Of a stretch of 36,072 nucleotides of DNA, positions 41-36,072 are shown piece by piece. The stretch lies in IMG/VR virus record IMGVR_UViG_3300037502_003935, positions 1 to 36,072 of that record. One strand, given 5' to 3'. Position numbers and translations under genes: made by a program. Each line of letters opens with the position of its first letter. The stretch's first letter is position 1. Below the pieces are notes generated by a model. It searched no databases, was not told the origin of the DNA, and worked only from the letters and a program-made list of their open reading frames with translations. Source of the DNA: a virus.

Positions 41-1087
41 TTATTTCTTGTTAAGATTATAACCCTCTCCTATTAGCTTGAGCTGCATACGAGAGTTAAG
101 TTTTTCTTCAAATCTTTCTTTTGTGGTTTTGACAACAAAACCTTCTCTAAGATGTTTGCCCCCTAACAAAGTTAAGCCTTCGGCATGTTGATACATCTCA
201 GTTTTATTAGTCCATTTTCCTCGATACAATTCAGGAACAATGTCTAATTGTAGATCAGAAGTAATTTTTAAAAAATCATCATAATCTAAGTATCTTCTAG
301 ATTTACTATTGAAGATATCAAAGAATCTAATTCTAGTTTCATTCTTACCCGACACTACTTTAGTATCATATAAAAATCCTTTTTGGAGCCCATAAATTTC
401 TCCAAAAAATACCAAATTAGGATATGATTTTAATTTTTCTTCTAAATTATATCTAATTGCAATATCCCACCAAGAATCACCTCCATCTTTTCTTTTATAA
501 AGGTTTCTTGATTTAACCCACAACTTTTCTCCATCAAAACAATAAGATGAAGATGCCCCATGAATTTTCTCAGTTAAAACAATTTCTTCGTCTGGCAGTA
601 GACAATTTATATATTGTCTTAACCCAGAGATATCATAGTATGGAATACTCCATCCTACTGGAGATTTTTCTGTTTTACCAGGCTGGATTTTAGCGGCTCT
701 TTCTTCTTCCTCTTCTTCAAGTTTCTTTAAAGAAAGAGTTTCTACTAACGAATCTCCAGGAGAAAGATTGCTAGGAACAGATACTAGCATTCCCTGACTA
801 TATATATTTCTAATTTTTTTAGCCCTAATTGTTCTGTATTTTTCAGGGACTGAACCTAAAGAATATTTAGGAGTTCCATCTTGTTTAGGGCACAGAAAAT
901 AAAATTGTTCAGTATCTGGAACTACTGTATCTATAGCAAGATAACCTGACAAATCTCCAACGCGATATTCATCTCGTTTAACTACAACTGGATAGTCTCC
1001 TAATACAGTAACAATATCTAAAGCATCGGCAAAAGGATGAGTTTCTACTTTTTCTATTACTACTACTTGACAATTCCAGTCTGACAT
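41..1087 (-). CDS. RNA ligase, Rnl5/DRB0094-like
   Basis: Probable ATP-dependent RNA ligase that seals nicks or breaks in RNA. The nucleotidyltransferase motifs are all present: motif I TEKIHGAS (residues 172-179, predicted AMP-accepting Lys174), motif III FFGEIYG (227-233), RIRFFDIF (252-259), motif IV EGFVVK (315-320) and motif V LKLIG (336-340). The first ~115 residues, with HPFADALDI and an OB-like pattern, precede the catalytic domain, as in the Deinococcus DraRnl (Rnl5) type rather than T4 Rnl1 or Rnl2. An acidic linker (EEEEEER, 124-130) joins the two parts. The start has a strong AGGAG site seven bases upstream. Phages use such ligases to repair tRNA or RNA cut by host defences; this role here is inferred. 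Confidence 0.9.
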   Translation of the reverse strand: MSDWNCQVVVIEKVETHPFADALDIVTVLGDYPVVVKRDEYRVGDLSGYLAIDTVVPDTEQFYFLCPKQDGTPKYSLGSVPEKYRTIRAKKIRNIYSQGMLVSVPSNLSPGDSLVETLSLKKLEEEEEERAAKIQPGKTEKSPVGWSIPYYDISGLRQYINCLLPDEEIVLTEKIHGASSSYCFDGEKLWVKSRNLYKRKDGGDSWWDIAIRYNLEEKLKSYPNLVFFGEIYGLQKGFLYDTKVVSGKNETRIRFFDIFNSKSRRYLDYDDFLKITSDLQLDIVPELYRGKWTNKTEMYQHAEGLTLLGGKHLREGFVVKTTKERFEEKLNSRMQLKLIGEGYNLNKK

Positions 1088-3149: not shown

Positions 3150-3284
3150 TCAATAATAGTTTTGATTCCGCAATCTAATATTACGCTCTTCCTTTAGGAA
3201 GGAAATTTCTTCTTCTAATTTTTTAATTTTCTTTTCTAGCTCTTCTATTTTAGCTAGATATACATTTTCTTGTTCTTGAGACAT
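3150..3284 (-). CDS. Small coiled-coil protein, 44 aa
   Basis: A short reading frame of Glu, Lys and Leu/Ile with clear heptad spacing (IEELEKKIKKLEEEISFLKE, residues 13-32), predicted to form a single alpha-helical coiled coil. Its ATG directly follows the TAA stop of the winged-helix-like gene (TAAATG), so it is likely translationally coupled to it. It may act as an oligomerisation partner of that regulator; this is inference. Confidence 0.6.
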   Translation of the reverse strand: MSQEQENVYLAKIEELEKKIKKLEEEISFLKEERNIRLRNQNYY

Positions 3285-3482
3285 TTAATTTACCATCTTA
3301 TTATCAGAAGATAAATGCTGACCCACAGCATATCCAATATCTGTTAATTGATAATAAACTTCTCCATCTTTAATAAAAGATGTAACTAAACCCTTGTTAA
3401 TCATTTCTGCCATCGCAACTTCAAATTCAATTGAGTTGAGATTCAGATCTCGCTTAGTAAAAGGGCTCTTAGGATTAGACAT
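3285..3482 (-). CDS. Small winged-helix-like protein
   Basis: 65 residues. Residues ~18-55 (IEFEVAMAEMINKGLV, then DGEVYYQLTDIGYAVG) match the helix-turn-wing pattern common in small winged-helix regulators: an E.A...M...GL turn, then a DG.VYYQLT.IG wing. It is a candidate DNA-binding transcription factor. Copy 1 of the dispersed hairpin element lies ~50 bases upstream of its start. Confidence 0.5.
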   Translation of the reverse strand: MSNPKSPFTKRDLNLNSIEFEVAMAEMINKGLVTSFIKDGEVYYQLTDIGYAVGQHLSSDNKMVN

Positions 3483-3513
3483 GATATTAACTTTCTTAGT
3501 TAGAGAACTGTTC

Positions 3514-3553
3514 GCTCACCTTAGCCACCGCCTACCAGCAGATGGGAGAGGCT
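3514..3553 (-). repeat. Dispersed hairpin element, copy 1
   Basis: Holds the invariant core TACCAGCAGATGGGA at 3533-3547. The flanks AGCC (3523-3526) and GGCT (3550-3553) can pair across an internal loop. The accessory block (CTCACCTTA) precedes the core on the plus strand. It lies between the stop at 3566 and the minus-strand start at 3482. Confidence 0.8.
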
Positions 3554-3565
3554 ACCCTAATTGCA

Positions 3566-3997
3566 TTATGGTTTACAGGCGTAACATGTGTGCATTCCAT
3601 CTTTTCCATCTGATGATGCATAGCTGTTATAACTATTACACTTACGGCAAGTAGCTCCTGTTGTAGAAGCGGGAAAGTTAAATGATAGTTGATTTGTTCC
3701 AGACAATGTAGGGATATTCGCCTTAGCAGTCGTAGTTTCAATTATATTGAATTTTATTGTATTAGAAAAATTTATTTCTAAAATTGCTTTCCTATATTCT
3801 TTGTTAAGAATTAAGTTTCTAATATTGTTAGAAACAATGGTATCTAAATTAGAAAAATCTATTTCTTTACAGAAAAGATAGCAAGCTTGCTGATAAGCAG
3901 ATTCTTCGCTATTGTATAGCGGAATAGGGTCTGACTCATGTCTCCAAATAGAATAACCCTCATCTTTATAAGCTATTTTAACTAAATATTTATTCAT
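3566..3997 (-). CDS. Protein with C-terminal zinc ribbon
   Basis: About 143 aa, function not recognised. The C-terminus holds CRKC...HTCYAC, a four-Cys zinc ribbon; the N-terminal ~110 residues are a mixed domain beginning MNKYLVKIAYKDEGYSIW. An in-frame ATG lies 15 bases further upstream, but the site GAGGAAAT sits just before the ATG at 3997, so that start is preferred. Confidence 0.6.
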   Translation of the reverse strand: MNKYLVKIAYKDEGYSIWRHESDPIPLYNSEESAYQQACYLFCKEIDFSNLDTIVSNNIRNLILNKEYRKAILEINFSNTIKFNIIETTTAKANIPTLSGTNQLSFNFPASTTGATCRKCNSYNSYASSDGKDGMHTCYACKP

Positions 3998-11124: not shown

Positions 11125-12243
11125 TCAAAACATATATCTTATTCTACTATATGGGGTAATTTTTTCAATTAAATTATTCATAATCTTTTTTAGATTAGAT
11201 TTGTCAGATCTAGAATAACTTAATACATTTGGCTTGTTCCACTTAGGAACTAAGTGTAACGGACCATTAACCATTATATTATGAGCTTTAGGCACATATT
11301 GTGAAATAGGTTCAAACATTTTCTCACTATGAGTAAGAAAAATAATCTCATATGCCATCTGAGATTTTGCCCTAGTAGAAAGAGTATCATTCACTAAATG
11401 TAGTAATTCCTCATACTCTTTTTCAAAATTATCTGTCACTACAATAGGGCTAAGATTAATGTGTACCTCAAACTCAGCGTCTACTAGTTTATTAACTGCT
11501 ACCAGCCTATCATTAATCTTACTGGTATTTTGTTCTAGTATTTGTCGATGGTGCTCTGGCATCAATGATAATCGAATCCTGTGCTTATCAGGATACTTAC
11601 AGCCCTCAATAAAATTATTGATTTCTGCTGATTTAGTAGCAAAACTAGTCATTACATTTTTGGTGTGCTCAGCAACCAAATTCATTACTTCTACCATATG
11701 ACCATGGTAAGATGCATGCAATGTAGTGCTATTGCTAGTTACTACATCACTATCACATCCAAGATCAATAGTAATCATTTTATTGTGTCTAATATCCCTA
11801 CGACGTTCAAAAAACTTTTTAGTTTCTTTAAAGAATTTTTCTTCGCAAAGATCTTGGTTCTGATCTATATATTCAGATAACTCAACTACTTTAAATAAGT
11901 CATTATAAATTTTAAGAAAATTATTAGGGTAATTTCTTTCTGTATAGCAATATGAACACCCAAATTTAAAACAACCTTGTTCCATCATCTGAGATGGAAG
12001 AAAGTCAGTAGACCTACCGTTACAATCTAATCCCCATTTCGCCTCTCTTTTTAGAAGAGCAATATACTTTTTCTTTTGTGGAAATCGATCTTTAGGATTA
12101 AGAGAAATTAAATTATAATCTGGATTAGTTACTTGAGTGTTTTTAGTAATAGTAACAATTTTGCTTGTTGGATTAGCAATTTTTAAATTTTGAGCTAGAG
12201 GAGAATTAGTACAATCTTTGTGGATGAAAAGAGTATGTTGCAT
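11125..12243 (-). CDS. Radical SAM protein, spore photoproduct lyase-like
   Basis: Predicted radical S-adenosylmethionine enzyme. The cluster motif is in GCFKFGCSYCYTER (Cys91, Cys96, Cys99), which would ligate a [4Fe-4S] cluster; SYCY is typical of the SPL-like group. Note that the spacing is Cx4Cx2C rather than the usual Cx3Cx2C. A later segment ITIDLGCDSDVV and the overall length (372 aa) fit the SPL-like phage proteins. SPL repairs UV-damaged thymines; other members modify other substrates, so DNA repair is only one option. The gene is divergent from the plus-strand gene at 12280. Confidence 0.7.
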   Translation of the reverse strand: MQHTLFIHKDCTNSPLAQNLKIANPTSKIVTITKNTQVTNPDYNLISLNPKDRFPQKKKYIALLKREAKWGLDCNGRSTDFLPSQMMEQGCFKFGCSYCYTERNYPNNFLKIYNDLFKVVELSEYIDQNQDLCEEKFFKETKKFFERRRDIRHNKMITIDLGCDSDVVTSNSTTLHASYHGHMVEVMNLVAEHTKNVMTSFATKSAEINNFIEGCKYPDKHRIRLSLMPEHHRQILEQNTSKINDRLVAVNKLVDAEFEVHINLSPIVVTDNFEKEYEELLHLVNDTLSTRAKSQMAYEIIFLTHSEKMFEPISQYVPKAHNIMVNGPLHLVPKWNKPNVLSYSRSDKSNLKKIMNNLIEKITPYSRIRYMF

Positions 12244-30099: not shown

Positions 30100-30131
30100 T
30101 GATTTCCTCCTTATCTTGATTTTTGGCTGCG

Positions 30132-30171
30132 TACCTACACTCTAAGTGGGCTCTTACCAGCAGATGGGAGC
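30132..30171 (-). repeat. Dispersed hairpin element, copy 8
   Basis: Core 30155-30169, preceded by the block ACCTACACTCTAA. GCTC (30150-30153) pairs with GAGC (30168-30171), which shifts the stem into the end of the core. It lies between the genes at 30214 and 30099. Confidence 0.8.
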
Positions 30172-30213
30172 TGCAACATATTTGCGCTTTACAATAAAGT
30201 AAAGCGTAATAAC

Positions 30214-30405
30214 TCAGCTAAAAAGTGACCGGTTAATCTCAGCTGTAATCTGTGTATTTACCTGGAAACTATCATCCAAATAATCCCCATCTGGTAAAGA
30301 GCCATCTTCGTTTTCTACAATAGAAATTGCCTCCTCCATAGAGGATGCTTCTACTTCCAGAGTAGCAAACATTATCCATTCCACTGATACTTTGTATTTA
30401 CTCAT
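30214..30405 (-). CDS. DpnD/PcfM-like small protein
   Basis: 63 aa: VSVEWIMFATLEVEASSMEE, AISIVENE...LPDGDYLDDSFQVN. The pattern W...T.EVEA.S.EEAI....LP.G.YxDDSFxV matches a small family of plasmids and phages (DpnD/PcfM type) of unknown function. Confidence 0.6.
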   Translation of the reverse strand: MSKYKVSVEWIMFATLEVEASSMEEAISIVENEDGSLPDGDYLDDSFQVNTQITAEINRSLFS

Positions 30406-30589
30406 ATACTTCCCGCAATTGCACAGGATTATTTACATTAAATAATTCGCCTTCTTTAGGGTAATCTACCAAGTACAATGTATAATTGCTATACTGTTTC
30501 TTTAGACTATTAGCAAATACAAAAGAACCGCGAAATTGACGCAATACACATCTATTTTTATTGTCTACTAAAATAAATGAATAAATCAT
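30398..30589 (-). CDS. Hypothetical protein, 63 aa
   Basis: Not recognised. MIYSFILVDNKNRCVLRQFR, then SLKKQYSNYTLYLVDYPKEG; small beta-alpha-beta layout. Overlaps the next gene's start by eight bases. Confidence 0.5.
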   Translation of the reverse strand: MIYSFILVDNKNRCVLRQFRGSFVFANSLKKQYSNYTLYLVDYPKEGELFNVNNPVQLREVYE

Positions 30590-30596
30590 TTCTCAC

Positions 30597-30842
30597 CTAA
30601 TAAGTTGCTAATGCCAATCTAGCTTCTTCATCACTCAAAATCAAGTCAGTATCGCAATCTAAATAAGCATGATTTCCAGTACTAGGCTGCCAACAATACA
30701 ATAATCGCCTTCCACTCCTAGTATAAAATGGAACCTCACTTCCATTATTAGCCGGAATCCAATTGCCTTGCTGCCTCTTAGCCTGCAAACGATTCAACAT
30801 ATCAATTACTGATTCCATGTAATCAACATGAGCTTTACTCAT
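30597..30842 (-). CDS. Small phage protein, GNHAYLD family-like
   Basis: 81 aa. GNWIPANNGSEVPFYTRSGR, RLLYCWQPSTGNHAYLDCDT and ILSDEEARLAL form a pattern I have seen in several phage proteins; function unknown. The start overlaps the end of the upstream gene by eight bases. Confidence 0.6.
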   Translation of the reverse strand: MSKAHVDYMESVIDMLNRLQAKRQQGNWIPANNGSEVPFYTRSGRRLLYCWQPSTGNHAYLDCDTDLILSDEEARLALATY

Positions 30843-31221
30843 TTGTCACATCCACAGTATGTACTTCGTAAAAATTAAGATTGAAATAATTAAACAATTG
30901 TAGCCATTCTTCTTCAGAAGGCTCTACCACCAATTCCAAATTGCGCTCGCACAAAACCTCTTCTACCGACAAATTAAAATACTTCTTGCACAGCTTTTCA
31001 AAATCTTCATTTGGAGATAGTCGATACTCGTCTGTATAATATCCAATCTCACTAGTCTCAACTAGATTCTTAAAAGCCTGTACATTCAATTTGTCACAAG
31101 CTGTAACTGCCTTTTCCAAACTAGTATATGCAGTTCGTGGCAAACCTCCATCACCATTGCGGTAATAGTTGTTGTCATCATAATCAAAACCGACTTCACA
31201 CACAAGATAAATCTTATCCAT
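30835..31221 (-). CDS. Hypothetical acidic protein, 128 aa
   Basis: Not recognised. MDKIYLVCEVGFDYDDNNYY, TSLEKAVTACDKLNV, and a Glu-rich second half. The ATG at 31221 is preferred over a TTG six bases upstream. Confidence 0.6.
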   Translation of the reverse strand: MDKIYLVCEVGFDYDDNNYYRNGDGGLPRTAYTSLEKAVTACDKLNVQAFKNLVETSEIGYYTDEYRLSPNEDFEKLCKKYFNLSVEEVLCERNLELVVEPSEEEWLQLFNYFNLNFYEVHTVDVTNE

Positions 31222-31223
31222 TT

Positions 31224-31568
31224 TCAATCCACCTTAATTTCTGGCTTTCGTTTGCCGCCAATCATCCAATCTGCAATTGGAATATTATCCACCCAATCTT
31301 GAACCGTAGGAATAAATCCTAAATCTTGCACTACATGATCTTCTGCAATATCTCGAACAGAGATTACCTTGCCATCACTATTAGTGATAGTACTACCAAA
31401 GATTTTCTCTACCAAGAAAATGCCAAAAGTATTATGCAAAATAGCTCGATGCTGAATCTTGGCATAGGCTATCTTGCTACTGTCAAAGAAATCATGAATA
31501 GCCAAATAATCTTCTGGCTTGCCACCATACTTCTTCACACTATTCTTGGCATGAATATAAGGCTTCAT
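31224..31568 (-). CDS. DUF6915-family protein
   Basis: MKPYIHAKNSVKKYGGKPED, IHDFFDSSKIAYAKIQHRAI, FGIFLVEKIFG, and DHVVQDLGFIPTVQDWVDNI then PIADWMIGG are the conserved segments of DUF6915, found in many phages and of unknown function. 114 aa. The ATG at 31568 has AGGA upstream; a longer frame to 31634 adds a poor leader. Confidence 0.8.
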   Translation of the reverse strand: MKPYIHAKNSVKKYGGKPEDYLAIHDFFDSSKIAYAKIQHRAILHNTFGIFLVEKIFGSTITNSDGKVISVRDIAEDHVVQDLGFIPTVQDWVDNIPIADWMIGGKRKPEIKVD

Positions 31569-31587
31569 TGTAATCCTATTAGATAAA

Positions 31588-31812
31588 TCAGTTATGTTCA
31601 ATCTGAAAGAAAGATGGATCGCTGCCTTGATCAATTAAGGCTTGAGCCATCTTTTCAGATGAAAGAATCTCTACAGAAGAAATATCCCAAGCCCCACTCC
31701 AATCTCCAGATTCAATCTGCTCAGAAATCTCACTCAAAGAGCTTGGATGAATTTCATCCTCAGAAAGAATTTCTACAGTCACAATGGTCTTATAAAAACT
31801 ACGATTGCTCAT
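31588..31812 (-). CDS. Small acidic protein, 74 aa
   Basis: SFYKTIVTVEILSEDEIHPS, SEISEQIESGDWSGAWDISS. The E(I/V)LSE...IxxGDWSG pattern occurs in a small phage family of unknown function. Overlaps the HEYGH gene by 14 bases. Confidence 0.6.
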   Translation of the reverse strand: MSNRSFYKTIVTVEILSEDEIHPSSLSEISEQIESGDWSGAWDISSVEILSSEKMAQALIDQGSDPSFFQIEHN

Positions 31813-33637: not shown

Positions 33638-34099
33638 TCAAAATAGAACATTAGAATCTAAATTAGAGAAATAATTACTGCTATCAAAGCAAGCCTTTAC
33701 TTTAGGCTCAAGCTTTTTAGCTGCACTCTCTACTGGAAGATTATTCCAAGCAATTAGCAATTGCTGCTCTTGCAACGGCTTATCTGCCAATTCAATTCCA
33801 AATTCATCAGTTTTCACATCAATCAAATGTTGAGTATAGTCACTATGACTCAATCCATTCTCTGCCGCCATCAAACAAAAACCATCACCTTCAGGATCAT
33901 TATCCATTTCCTGAATCATAGTATAAACATGATGAGATGCCAAAGTATAAGCTACAGAAAACAATTGGTCATGAAAATTAGTTTCATCATCTACGTAGCC
34001 AGATCCATTACAATGATAACAAGTATGGTGCTGCAACCGATCATCATAAAAAATTTCAATGCCTTCGCCATTGCAACTAACACAAATATGATTGCTCAT
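33638..34099 (-). CDS. DnaJ-type zinc-finger protein, 153 aa
   Basis: The N-terminus holds two CxxCxGxG units, CVSCNGEG (6-13) and CYHCNGSG (27-34): half of a DnaJ central zinc domain. No J-domain is present, so it is a free zinc-finger protein, possibly for protein or RNA binding. The C-terminal 110 residues are acidic and unrecognised. AAGGATT leads to the ATG. Element copy 9 lies 55 bases upstream. Confidence 0.7.
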   Translation of the reverse strand: MSNHICVSCNGEGIEIFYDDRLQHHTCYHCNGSGYVDDETNFHDQLFSVAYTLASHHVYTMIQEMDNDPEGDGFCLMAAENGLSHSDYTQHLIDVKTDEFGIELADKPLQEQQLLIAWNNLPVESAAKKLEPKVKACFDSSNYFSNLDSNVLF

Positions 34100-34738: not shown

Positions 34739-34782
34739 AAATAATTAACAATATCTATAACAGTTGCCAGAACTAGAATTCT

Positions 34783-34802
34783 TCATGGATTTAAATCCAT
34801 GA
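34783..34802. repeat. 20-base perfect palindrome
   Basis: TCATGGATTTAAATCCATGA, at the end of the Ser-X array. It overlaps the stop of the last array gene (34791). No T-tract follows on the minus strand. Confidence 0.8.
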
Positions 34803-34856
34803 TTTAGAACATACCCCAGGTCTACTATAGTATTTTTTAAATTTACTTTTCTTCAT
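34791..34856 (-). CDS. Short member of the Ser-X array, 21 aa (last gene)
   Basis: MKKSKFKKYYSRPGVCSKSW then I. It keeps the MKKSK-KK-Y start of the array proteins but has lost the dipeptide body. GGAGG stands six bases before the ATG. Most distal gene of the array on the minus strand; possibly a decayed copy. Confidence 0.5.
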   Translation of the reverse strand: MKKSKFKKYYSRPGVCSKSWI

Positions 34857-35043
34857 TTTTTCCTCCAGACCTAGACCAAGAAATAGATCCAGATCCAGAC
34901 TTAGAATAACCGTGCATAGACTTAGCATCAGACCAAGAGCCAGATACAGACCAAACCCAAAATCCAGAACCAGATACAGACCAAGAACCAAGCCTAGACA
35001 TATATCCAGATTTATATTTTCTAGTATATTTACTCTTCTTCAT
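34843..35043 (-). CDS. Ser-X repeat protein (66 aa), diverged
   Basis: Starts MKKSKYTRKYKSGYMSRLGS; the body mixes Ser-Gly, Ser-Val and Trp units less regularly than its siblings and ends SRSGGKNEEK. A run of six A after GGAGG shifts the usual stop: instead of ending at the next ATGA, the frame runs 14 bases into the next gene. It is the most diverged full-length member. Confidence 0.65.
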   Translation of the reverse strand: MKKSKYTRKYKSGYMSRLGSWSVSGSGFWVWSVSGSWSDAKSMHGYSKSGSGSISWSRSGGKNEEK

Positions 35044-35294
35044 TTATATTCTCCAGACCAAGACCAATATCCATACCAAGACCCAGAACCAAAACCAGAA
35101 CCAGACCAAGACCAAGACCCAGAACCAGAACCAGACCCAGACTCAGAATCAGACCCAGACCCAGACCTAGACCAAGACCCAGAACTAGACCAAGACCCAG
35201 ACCCAGAACTAGACCTAGACCAAGACCCAGAACTAGACCCAGAACCAGACCCAGAACTAGACCAATAACTTTTCTTATATTTACTCTTCTTCAT
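35040..35294 (-). CDS. Ser-X dipeptide-repeat protein (84 aa)
   Basis: MKKSKYKKSYWSSSGSGSGS followed by ~30 Ser-X units with X mostly Gly, Arg or Trp, plus Asp, Glu and Phe; ends YGYWSWSGEYK. Ser is nearly always TCT and X mostly NGG or GGN, so the DNA is an imperfect hexamer array. No known domain; predicted disordered, basic, with Arg and aromatic residues regularly spaced. ATGA overlaps at both ends and GGAG in the C-terminal codons tie it to its neighbours. Confidence 0.75.
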   Translation of the reverse strand: MKKSKYKKSYWSSSGSGSGSSSGSWSRSSSGSGSWSSSGSWSRSGSGSDSESGSGSGSGSWSWSGSGFGSGSWYGYWSWSGEYK

Positions 35295-35491
35295 TTAGAT
35301 CCTCCAGATCTAGACCAATATCCATACCTAGATCCAGACCCAGACCCAGACCCAGATAAAGAACCAGACCTAGACCAAGATCCAGATAAAGAACCAGACC
35401 TAGACCAAGATCCAGACCTAGACCAAGACCTAGACCCAAAGCTAGAACCAGACCCAGACCAATAATTTTTCTTATATTTACTCTTCTTCAT
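35291..35491 (-). CDS. Ser-X dipeptide-repeat protein (66 aa)
   Basis: MKKSKYKKNYWSGSGSSFGS with units SR, SW, SL and SG; ends RYGYWSRSGGSK. The last codons TCT GGA GGA TCT AAA TGA contain the GGAGG site (35301-35305 on the plus strand as CCTCC) that starts the next gene six bases later. Same family, shorter body. Confidence 0.75.
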   Translation of the reverse strand: MKKSKYKKNYWSGSGSSFGSRSWSRSGSWSRSGSLSGSWSRSGSLSGSGSGSGSRYGYWSRSGGSK

Positions 35492-35766
35492 TTAGATCCT
35501 CCAGATCTAGACCCAGACCCAGACCAAGATAAATACAAAGACTCAGAACCAGACCAAGACCAAGACCCAGACCCAAACCCAGATAAAGACCTAGACCCAG
35601 ACCAAGACCTAGAACCAGACCCAGACCTAGAACTAGACCCAGACCTAGACCCAGACCTAGACACAGACCCAAACCCAGAACCAGAACCAGAACCAGACCA
35701 AGACCCAGACCAAGACCTAGACCAAGACCTAGAACAATAACTTTTCTTATTTTTACTCTTCTTCAT
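35488..35766 (-). CDS. Ser-X dipeptide-repeat protein (92 aa)
   Basis: Longest member. MKKSKNKKSYCSRSWSRSWS, a body of SG, SR, SW with SV, SL, SF and SE, ending SGSGSRSGGSK. Cys replaces Trp at residue 11. GGAGG at 35498-35502 (plus-strand CCTCC) and ATGA lead into the next gene. It is itself preceded by GGAGG (35773-35777), beyond the amber codon of the next gene upstream. Confidence 0.75.
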   Translation of the reverse strand: MKKSKNKKSYCSRSWSRSWSGSWSGSGSGSGFGSVSRSGSRSGSSSRSGSGSRSWSGSRSLSGFGSGSWSWSGSESLYLSWSGSGSRSGGSK

Positions 35767-35798
35767 TTATATCCTCCAGATCTAGACCAATATCCATA

Positions 35799-36011
35799 CT
35801 AAGACCCAGACCCAGACCAAGACCTAGACCAAGACCCAGAACCAGAACCAGACCCAGACTCAGAACCAGACCCAGACCTATACCAAGACCCAGCCCCAGA
35901 ACTAGACCTAGACCAAGACCTAGACCTAGACTCAGACCCAGATAAAGACCAAGACCTATACCAAGACAAAGACCTAGACCAATAATTTTTCTTATATTTA
36001 CTCTTCTTCAT
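35799..36011 (-). CDS. Ser-X repeat protein cut by an in-frame amber codon (70 aa)
   Basis: MKKSKYKKNYWSRSLSWYRS with a Ser-X body (SG, SR, SW, SE, one SA) up to WSRSWSGSGS. Then TAG at 35799-35801 replaces what is TGG or AGG in siblings; the frame continues with the family's normal ending YGYWSRSGGYK and a UGA at 35763-35765 that overlaps the next start. So one base change removes the last 11 residues, unless the amber is read through. Confidence 0.7.
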   Translation of the reverse strand: MKKSKYKKNYWSRSLSWYRSWSLSGSESRSRSWSRSSSGAGSWYRSGSGSESGSGSGSGSWSRSWSGSGS

Positions 36012-36072
36012 TTAGATCCTCCAGATCTAAAACAAGCAAAAGCACCAGACCCAGAAACAGACCAAGACCAAG
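36008..36072 (-). CDS. Ser-X repeat protein, partial (window edge)
   Basis: Only the last 20 codons are inside the window: WSWSVSGSGAFACFRSGGSK, ending in the ATGA overlap with the next gene. It has the conserved RSGGSK end, so the array continues to the right; the start is outside. Confidence 0.65.
   Translation of the reverse strand, partial: WSWSVSGSGAFACFRSGGSK

Follow-up and report, generated by a model that had tools for sequence, protein, structure and literature searches.

Dipeptide-repeat genes in phages and their predicted Sm-like partners

Sm-fold proteins commonly form RNA-binding rings, and some eukaryotic ones carry Gly-Arg tails: SmD1 and SmD3 have GR-repeat tails, and LSm4 is likewise an Sm/LSm protein with a low-complexity tail. 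The phage genes described here resemble these proteins in combining a (predicted) Sm fold with a dipeptide-type low-complexity partner, rich in Gly or Ser and bearing Arg and aromatic residues. They differ in that the phage tail is usually a separate gene, present in one to about ten copies, and is built of Ser-X or Gly-X units. The entry 3by7, an Sm/LSm-like protein from uncultured marine material, 'of putative cyanophage origin', is the best structural match of one of our partner families (family A, below), but its title mentions no dipeptide-repeat partner and it is missed by our sequence profile. Among the Sm-like partners, one subtype belongs to DUF6948 (PF22253), a domain of unknown function, whereas the other subtypes tested fall below detection. 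As for the repeats, SR proteins, FUS-type domains and the C9orf72 repeats offer likenesses in Ser-Arg or [G/S]Y[G/S] composition and in hexanucleotide-encoded dipeptide repeats; the proteins of our array, in contrast, lack the RRM expected of SR proteins (no Pfam domain is found in them), begin at ordinary ATG or GTG starts, and come from viral genes under selection. Finally, bacterial Hfq also has an Sm-fold core plus a disordered C-terminal region (PMC10590398), but the family libraries return no Hfq match for the phage proteins, and the phage tail, a strict dipeptide repeat, would be supplied in trans.

The array at the right end of the window

The window, by which we mean the whole stretch of DNA that was analysed, is an entire virus record of 36,072 bases, and the array at 34791-36072 reaches its right edge. 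It consists of six minus-strand genes and an edge fragment in direct succession, which we list together with two associated features.

About 36008-36072, minus strand: C-terminal fragment of a further Ser-X gene, off the contig edge (read from the sequence); C-terminus ...SVSGSGAFACFRSGGSK, ending RSGGSK before the stop codon; ATGA overlap with g6
35799-36011, minus strand: g6, Ser-X dipeptide-repeat protein of 70 residues with the start MKKSKYKKNYWSRS; in-frame TAG ahead of the conserved tail
35488-35766, minus strand: g5, Ser-X dipeptide-repeat protein of 92 residues
35291-35491, minus strand: g4, Ser-X dipeptide-repeat protein of 66 residues
35040-35294, minus strand: g3, Ser-X dipeptide-repeat protein of 84 residues
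34843-35043, minus strand: g2, diverged Ser-X protein of 66 residues
34791-34856, minus strand: g1, short remnant MKKSKFKKYYSRPGVCSKSWI of 21 residues, its start overlapping the end of g2
34745-34786, minus strand: possible further decayed start MKNSSSGNCYRYC, 13 codons (read from the sequence; weak)
35053-35980, minus strand: hexanucleotide tract (TCT-NGG type) encoding the Ser-X bodies (Tandem Repeats Finder)

The original prediction, made from the letters of the window, was of at least seven tandem genes running off the right edge; this is borne out when the edge fragment is counted, the six genes being followed by a further C-terminus that extends to the contig end. MKKSK-type starts are common to the array genes, and the conserved MKKSKYKK-type start that had been claimed occurs exactly four times in the record, compared with zero times for a reversed-pattern control. 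(Two loci with an exact start of this type, L001 and L002, were set aside as chance matches.) The Ser-X bodies that had been ascribed to the array as a whole are found in g3-g6, which have 66-92 residues and are plainly of this type; in g2 only part of the protein is Ser-X, and the 21-residue g1 has no such body.

At the three complete junctions g5/g4, g4/g3 and g3/g2, stop and start overlap as ATGA, and a GGAGG inside the last codons (RSGGSK) forms the ribosome-binding site (Shine-Dalgarno) of the next gene. In g6 the usual tail, YGYWSRSGGYK, continues after the in-frame TAG. Because TAG ends four of the 39 window genes checked, and because a CTA anticodon is absent from all seven tRNAs found in the window, this TAG is most likely a real stop. 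The view that these are real, paralogous coding genes is upheld, and selection acts on the Ser-X frame, as described below. The array is also open in other frames, Leu-Gly and Arg-Pro among them, but these have no start, ribosome-binding site or conserved ends; nor is any of them the better conserved, since they change residue between phages whereas Ser-X stays.

The array proteins are, as had been described, basic and of low complexity (net charge +5 to +13), with aromatic and Arg residues spaced by Ser and Gly. Their three commonest X codons are GGG (36), TGG (28) and AGG (21); Arg accounts for 0.25 of the NGG units, versus a family mean of 0.31, and the window uses GGT (17 X codons) more often than the family does. 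Searches of the repeat proteins against Pfam, PHROG and NCBIfam returned nothing useful.

A perfect 20-bp palindrome, TCATGGATTTAAATCCATGA, lies at 34783-34802 and spans the g1 stop codon, and a tRNA-Leu gene adjoins the array directly downstream. The seven tRNA genes of the window are those for Tyr, Gly, Asn, Leu (two), Arg and Ile. The window also holds an RNA ligase gene (41-1087, minus strand) and, unusually for a phage, a gene at 11125-12243 (minus strand) whose product matches spore photoproduct lyases (PF20903) with an E value of 1.3e-17.

The closest relative of the window is the virus contig G001 (361,490 bases), whose helicase is 89% identical to that of the window. It contains a complete five-gene array of the Gly-(Tyr/Asn/Asp/Ser) type (L046:907-2182), encoding proteins of the form MEEYFMLVG...(GY/GN/GD/GS)n...TVSRKR, and the ribosome-binding site AAGAGG lies inside the preceding gene's C-terminus, as in the window. 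Since this array of the same design is complete and sits about 34 kb inside its contig, the design is no product of a contig end. Near relatives thus keep the array design and not the dipeptide: the module is G-type in G001 and an S-type array in the window. Across 2.1 Mb of helicase-bearing relatives, such period-6 tracts occur only in the window, in G001 and in L041, where the contig edge cuts the tract. The G001 array adjoins homologues of window genes 30835-31227 and 31224-31634, and directly upstream of it stands the one family A (Sm-like) gene in 361 kb. The counterpart of this site in the window, 30100-30835, has neither a repeat gene nor an Sm-like gene, so that the position of the module differs even between close relatives.

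Repeat genes across phages and the gene upstream

Relatives of the window array are not easily reached by similarity. A search of the viral contigs through the neighbour gene at 33638-34099 yielded none, and a search by alignment of the repeat proteins gave 324 pattern matches with zero confirmed, probably because low-complexity sequence defeats tblastn. We therefore scanned viral contigs by pattern for Gly-X and for Ser-X, which returned at least 120 loci each; after filtering, the two scans contain at least 144 loci with ATG-started G or S dipeptide-repeat genes. Among the scanned loci are about 30 clusters of at least two genes with matching starts (a few in the wrong frame). For example, L259 has eight MRYLFEG/MRYLIVG genes, L241 has seven plus three of the MITKRSR type, and L284 has five with MKMIQKI/MKIIQKT starts. 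The search for such genes in other phages, which had been proposed as a check, has thus found them, and we conclude that the Ser-X and Gly-X genes form a widespread, previously undescribed phage family. In a literature collection that leaves out preprints and most subscription journals, neither the repeat proteins nor DUF6948 proved to be described, and the analysis came upon no experiment with any member of the family. Directly downstream of the eight-gene Ser-X array in L259 is a gene (3198-3875, plus strand) that by eye resembles QueE of the deazaguanine pathway.

The pair of genes described below also occurs in cultured phages. In Rheinheimera phage Barba (115 records; host strain BAL341) it comprises gp018 and gp017, MEPESLAIKITGNGYGNGYGYG...; among the four variants read, the lengths are 69, 71, 79 and 83 residues and change by 6-nt steps throughout. 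Pectobacterium phages Taid and Abuela, in which the pair adjoins a tail fiber gene, and Vibrio phage IKEMa6-1 carry it as well. The genes in Barba, Taid and Abuela are annotated 'hypothetical protein'. The Rheinheimera phage has a published transcriptome study, whose text does not name the genes of the pair (PMC9305737). In Chlorobiaceae phage CV-1-33 (L446:1477-1722), GenBank gene25 (MAMAMALAM...), downstream of a DUF6948-like gene, is probably the wrong frame of a Gly-X repeat gene.

When the neighbours of the repeat genes were compared all-against-all, two clusters dominated, each directly upstream of the repeat gene: family A, with 76 loci at a median distance of -3 nt, and family B, with 26 loci at a median distance of 3 nt. 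A gene of these Sm-like families lies within 200 bp and on the same strand in 61 of 71 G-type loci and 47 of 74 S-type loci. In order to avoid circularity, we also performed the reverse test, in which contigs were picked by the Sm-like gene alone. For family B (80 contigs), a Ser-X gene was present in all 75 contigs with downstream sequence (59 distinct by sequence); in 74 of the 75 it stands beside the Sm-like gene, nearly always within about 110 nt of the Sm stop. The exception is a single type, L408 and its near copy L411, whose Ser-X gene is 0.7 kb off or not adjacent. For the RGW type of family A (80 contigs), 76 of 79 had an adjoining Gly-X gene, redundant contigs included. Members of a further subtype, ADTGR, precede Ser-X genes in 12 of 12 cases checked, these having been drawn from the Ser-X scan itself. 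The subtype tracks the type of repeat, family B and ADTGR going with Ser-X and RGW with Gly-X. In one natural fusion (L137:4963-5622), a single ATG-started frame of 219 residues encodes both a DUF6948-like domain (E 5.8e-21) and, after it, a Gly-X tail. On the strength of the tight linkage, the match of subtype to repeat type and the fusion, we argue that both proteins act together. The repeat proteins do not stand alone but are one partner in a two-gene unit, the other partner being a predicted Sm-fold protein.

Family B genes also occur on contigs binned as a proteobacterium, Thaumarchaeota, Dependentiae and Patescibacteria (L441-L444), with an adjoining Ser-X frame in three of the four; these may be prophages or misbinned phage contigs.

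One family A subtype matches Pfam DUF6948 (L122, E 2.1e-21, 76.3 bits versus a cut-off of 27), and the Sm-like neighbours of L304, L282, L313, L046, L189, L262 and L318 gave no match to this domain. In profile comparisons, family B and the ADTGR subtype recognise each other (E 5.5e-10), as do DUF6948 and RGW (E 1.1e-6), while the links of DUF6948 to family B and to ADTGR are weak; one alignment, A6, proved too diverse to serve as a query and was dropped. The AlphaFold model of family B (pLDDT 90.5) has Foldseek matches that, among those listed, are overwhelmingly Sm/LSm proteins, the best being the archaeal Sm protein 1jri (VIA Z 10.6, 2.1 A over 72 of 74 residues); its matches in a viral library include DUF6948 proteins and the Barba phage protein. 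For family A (pLDDT 84) the best match is the Sm/LSm-like 3by7, at 2.0 A over 68 residues and with a Z of 8.9, which barely exceeds what models lacking a relative reach. Against the PDB, the family B sequence profile matched no chain and that of family A just one unrelated chain (E 0.74). Since sequence profiles do not reach the PDB entries, we treat the Sm/LSm fold of the partner proteins as predicted.

The window array shares two features of the Ser-X family: a basic-aromatic N-terminus followed by Ser-(Gly/Arg/Trp) repeats (compare MKKSKYKKNYWSRS with MLNKSKYKRYINSWS and MIKKSIYKRNIWS), and X codons that are mostly NGG, about one quarter to one third of these units being Arg. The starts closest to its own are MLNKSKYKRYINSWS and MLKKNKYKKYIRSSS in L366 and MIKKSIYKRNIWS in L304 and L356, and in all three loci the repeat genes lie behind a family B gene. 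Its membership in the family is thus suggested by N-terminus, composition and tandem layout. No Sm-like gene is found anywhere in the window, where the 5' end of the array falls off the contig; we predict this gene just past the right edge. Because its expected place lies off the contig, the link to an Sm-like protein is one step weaker for the window than for the family.

A proposed assembly and its main rivals

We propose that a small protein with a predicted Sm/LSm fold, drawn from one of several sequence families, would form an RNA-binding ring, and that the products of one to about ten closely spaced repeat genes would serve as tails of this ring, supplied in trans. These products are either Ser-(Gly/Arg/Trp) proteins with a basic-aromatic N-terminus or Gly-(Tyr/Asn/Asp/Ser) proteins, whose C-terminus is often basic. 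Their aromatic and Arg residues would act as multivalent stickers, spaced by Ser and Gly, through which rings, RNA and the repeat proteins themselves are held together in an RNA-protein assembly. This would probably happen at an early stage of infection, and copy number and repeat length would tune the valency. We give roughly even credence to this scheme, in which the window array would be a many-copy version. More tentatively, many tailed phages may carry a ribonucleoprotein system of this kind, in which Sm-like rings and dipeptide-repeat scaffolds form condensates on phage or host RNA. The original prediction had left open whether the repeat proteins form an assembly, coat something or bind nucleic acid; a predicted Sm-fold partner points to RNA and away from a coat.

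The rival that carries most weight, unlikely as we consider it, is a regulator or anti-host module: the Sm-like protein would block a host RNA machine, either in the way that Rof acts on Rho or by poisoning the Hfq ring, and the repeat protein would be an accessory binding the same target or RNA. Rof is indeed an Sm-fold inhibitor of Rho (PMC11018626), and the phage genes are small, fast-evolving and variable among close relatives, as the G-type array of G001 and the S-type array of the window illustrate. In relatives they lie in replication and recombination regions, near ERF-, SSB-, YqaJ-exonuclease- and helicase-like proteins (names by reading). However, the Sm families have no match in PADLOC, PHROG or NCBIfam, and a blocking role leaves unexplained both the match of repeat type to Sm subtype and the multiplication of copies.

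The same neighbours, together with the constant pairing with a predicted Sm-fold protein, argue against a virion or surface component, in which silk-like or adhesive low-complexity proteins would decorate or bundle particles. Alternating Ser/Gly-X could form beta sheet, and the pair adjoins the tail fiber gene in the two Pectobacterium phages, but we consider a structural role improbable.

If the proposed Sm-based assembly is correct, these phages hold a viral counterpart of the eukaryotic Sm-with-RG-tail design. The two genes are neighbours in well above 100 phage contigs, cultured phages included, and were overlooked because similarity searches fail on low-complexity sequence and pipelines label both 'hypothetical' or choose a wrong frame. 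Being small and genetically tractable, the system makes it possible to ask whether Sm rings and low-complexity tails cooperate beyond the eukaryotes, and whether RNA is gathered into assemblies by phages.

Selection on the protein frame

In the contigs chosen by family B, the main Ser codon is TCT at 26 loci, TCG at 23, TCA at five, AGC at three, and TCC and AGT at one each. The X residues of these contigs are Gly (35%), Arg (26%) and Trp (25%), and 87% of the X codons are NGG, even in GC-rich phages. An NGG codon encodes Arg when its first base is A or C, and these two bases swap between phages (r = -0.78). The Arg share (A+C) has an SD of 0.116, hardly above the binomial expectation of 0.101, while that of A alone is 0.18 and that of C alone 0.16; the two alternative pairings of bases vary more than the Arg pairing (bootstrap P 0.0006 and 0.0002). 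Because the Arg share is steady across the codon switch, and because all six Ser codons are used, we conclude that selection acts on the Ser-X protein. In the G type, CAY (His) makes up 1.4%, versus about 38% TAY, 27% GAY and 18% AAY, and the search pattern allowed His. The repeats thus show cleanly, in natural sequences, how selection acts on low-complexity composition: the Arg share is nearly fixed while codons change. Avoidance of Cys (P 0.004 in the window, P 0.82 in the family) is not relied on.

These patterns bear on the notion that the hexamer array is itself the functional element, as DNA or RNA, and the open frames a by-product. The regularity of the hexamer, the nearly invariable NGG and the uniform Ser codon within an array would suit such an element; however, there is no common DNA motif, since Ser is TCT, TCG, TCA, TCC, AGC or AGT depending on the phage, the Arg share is constant across the codon switch, the start codon and N-terminus are kept, a repeat is fused to a folded domain, and the window array has no G-quadruplex-type motif, so that we find the notion very hard to credit. 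Equally implausible is a tolerated, functionless runaway expansion of microsatellites in small genes, which fits the 6-nt length steps among close Barba phages (69, 71, 79 and 83 residues) and the decay at array ends (g1, g2) but not the result of the two independent reverse scans, in which almost all Sm-like genes had a repeat gene next to them, the constant composition, the conserved termini or the rarity of His in the G type.

Selection on the protein alone does not explain the near-constant NGG or the uniform Ser codon within an array, whose dominant codon has a median share of 1.00; our guess is that the uniform Ser codon and the third base of NGG reflect recent expansion of blocks of units. 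The dominance of NGG at X and the uniformity of the Ser codon are seen in S-type arrays generally, for example in L372, L383 and L404.
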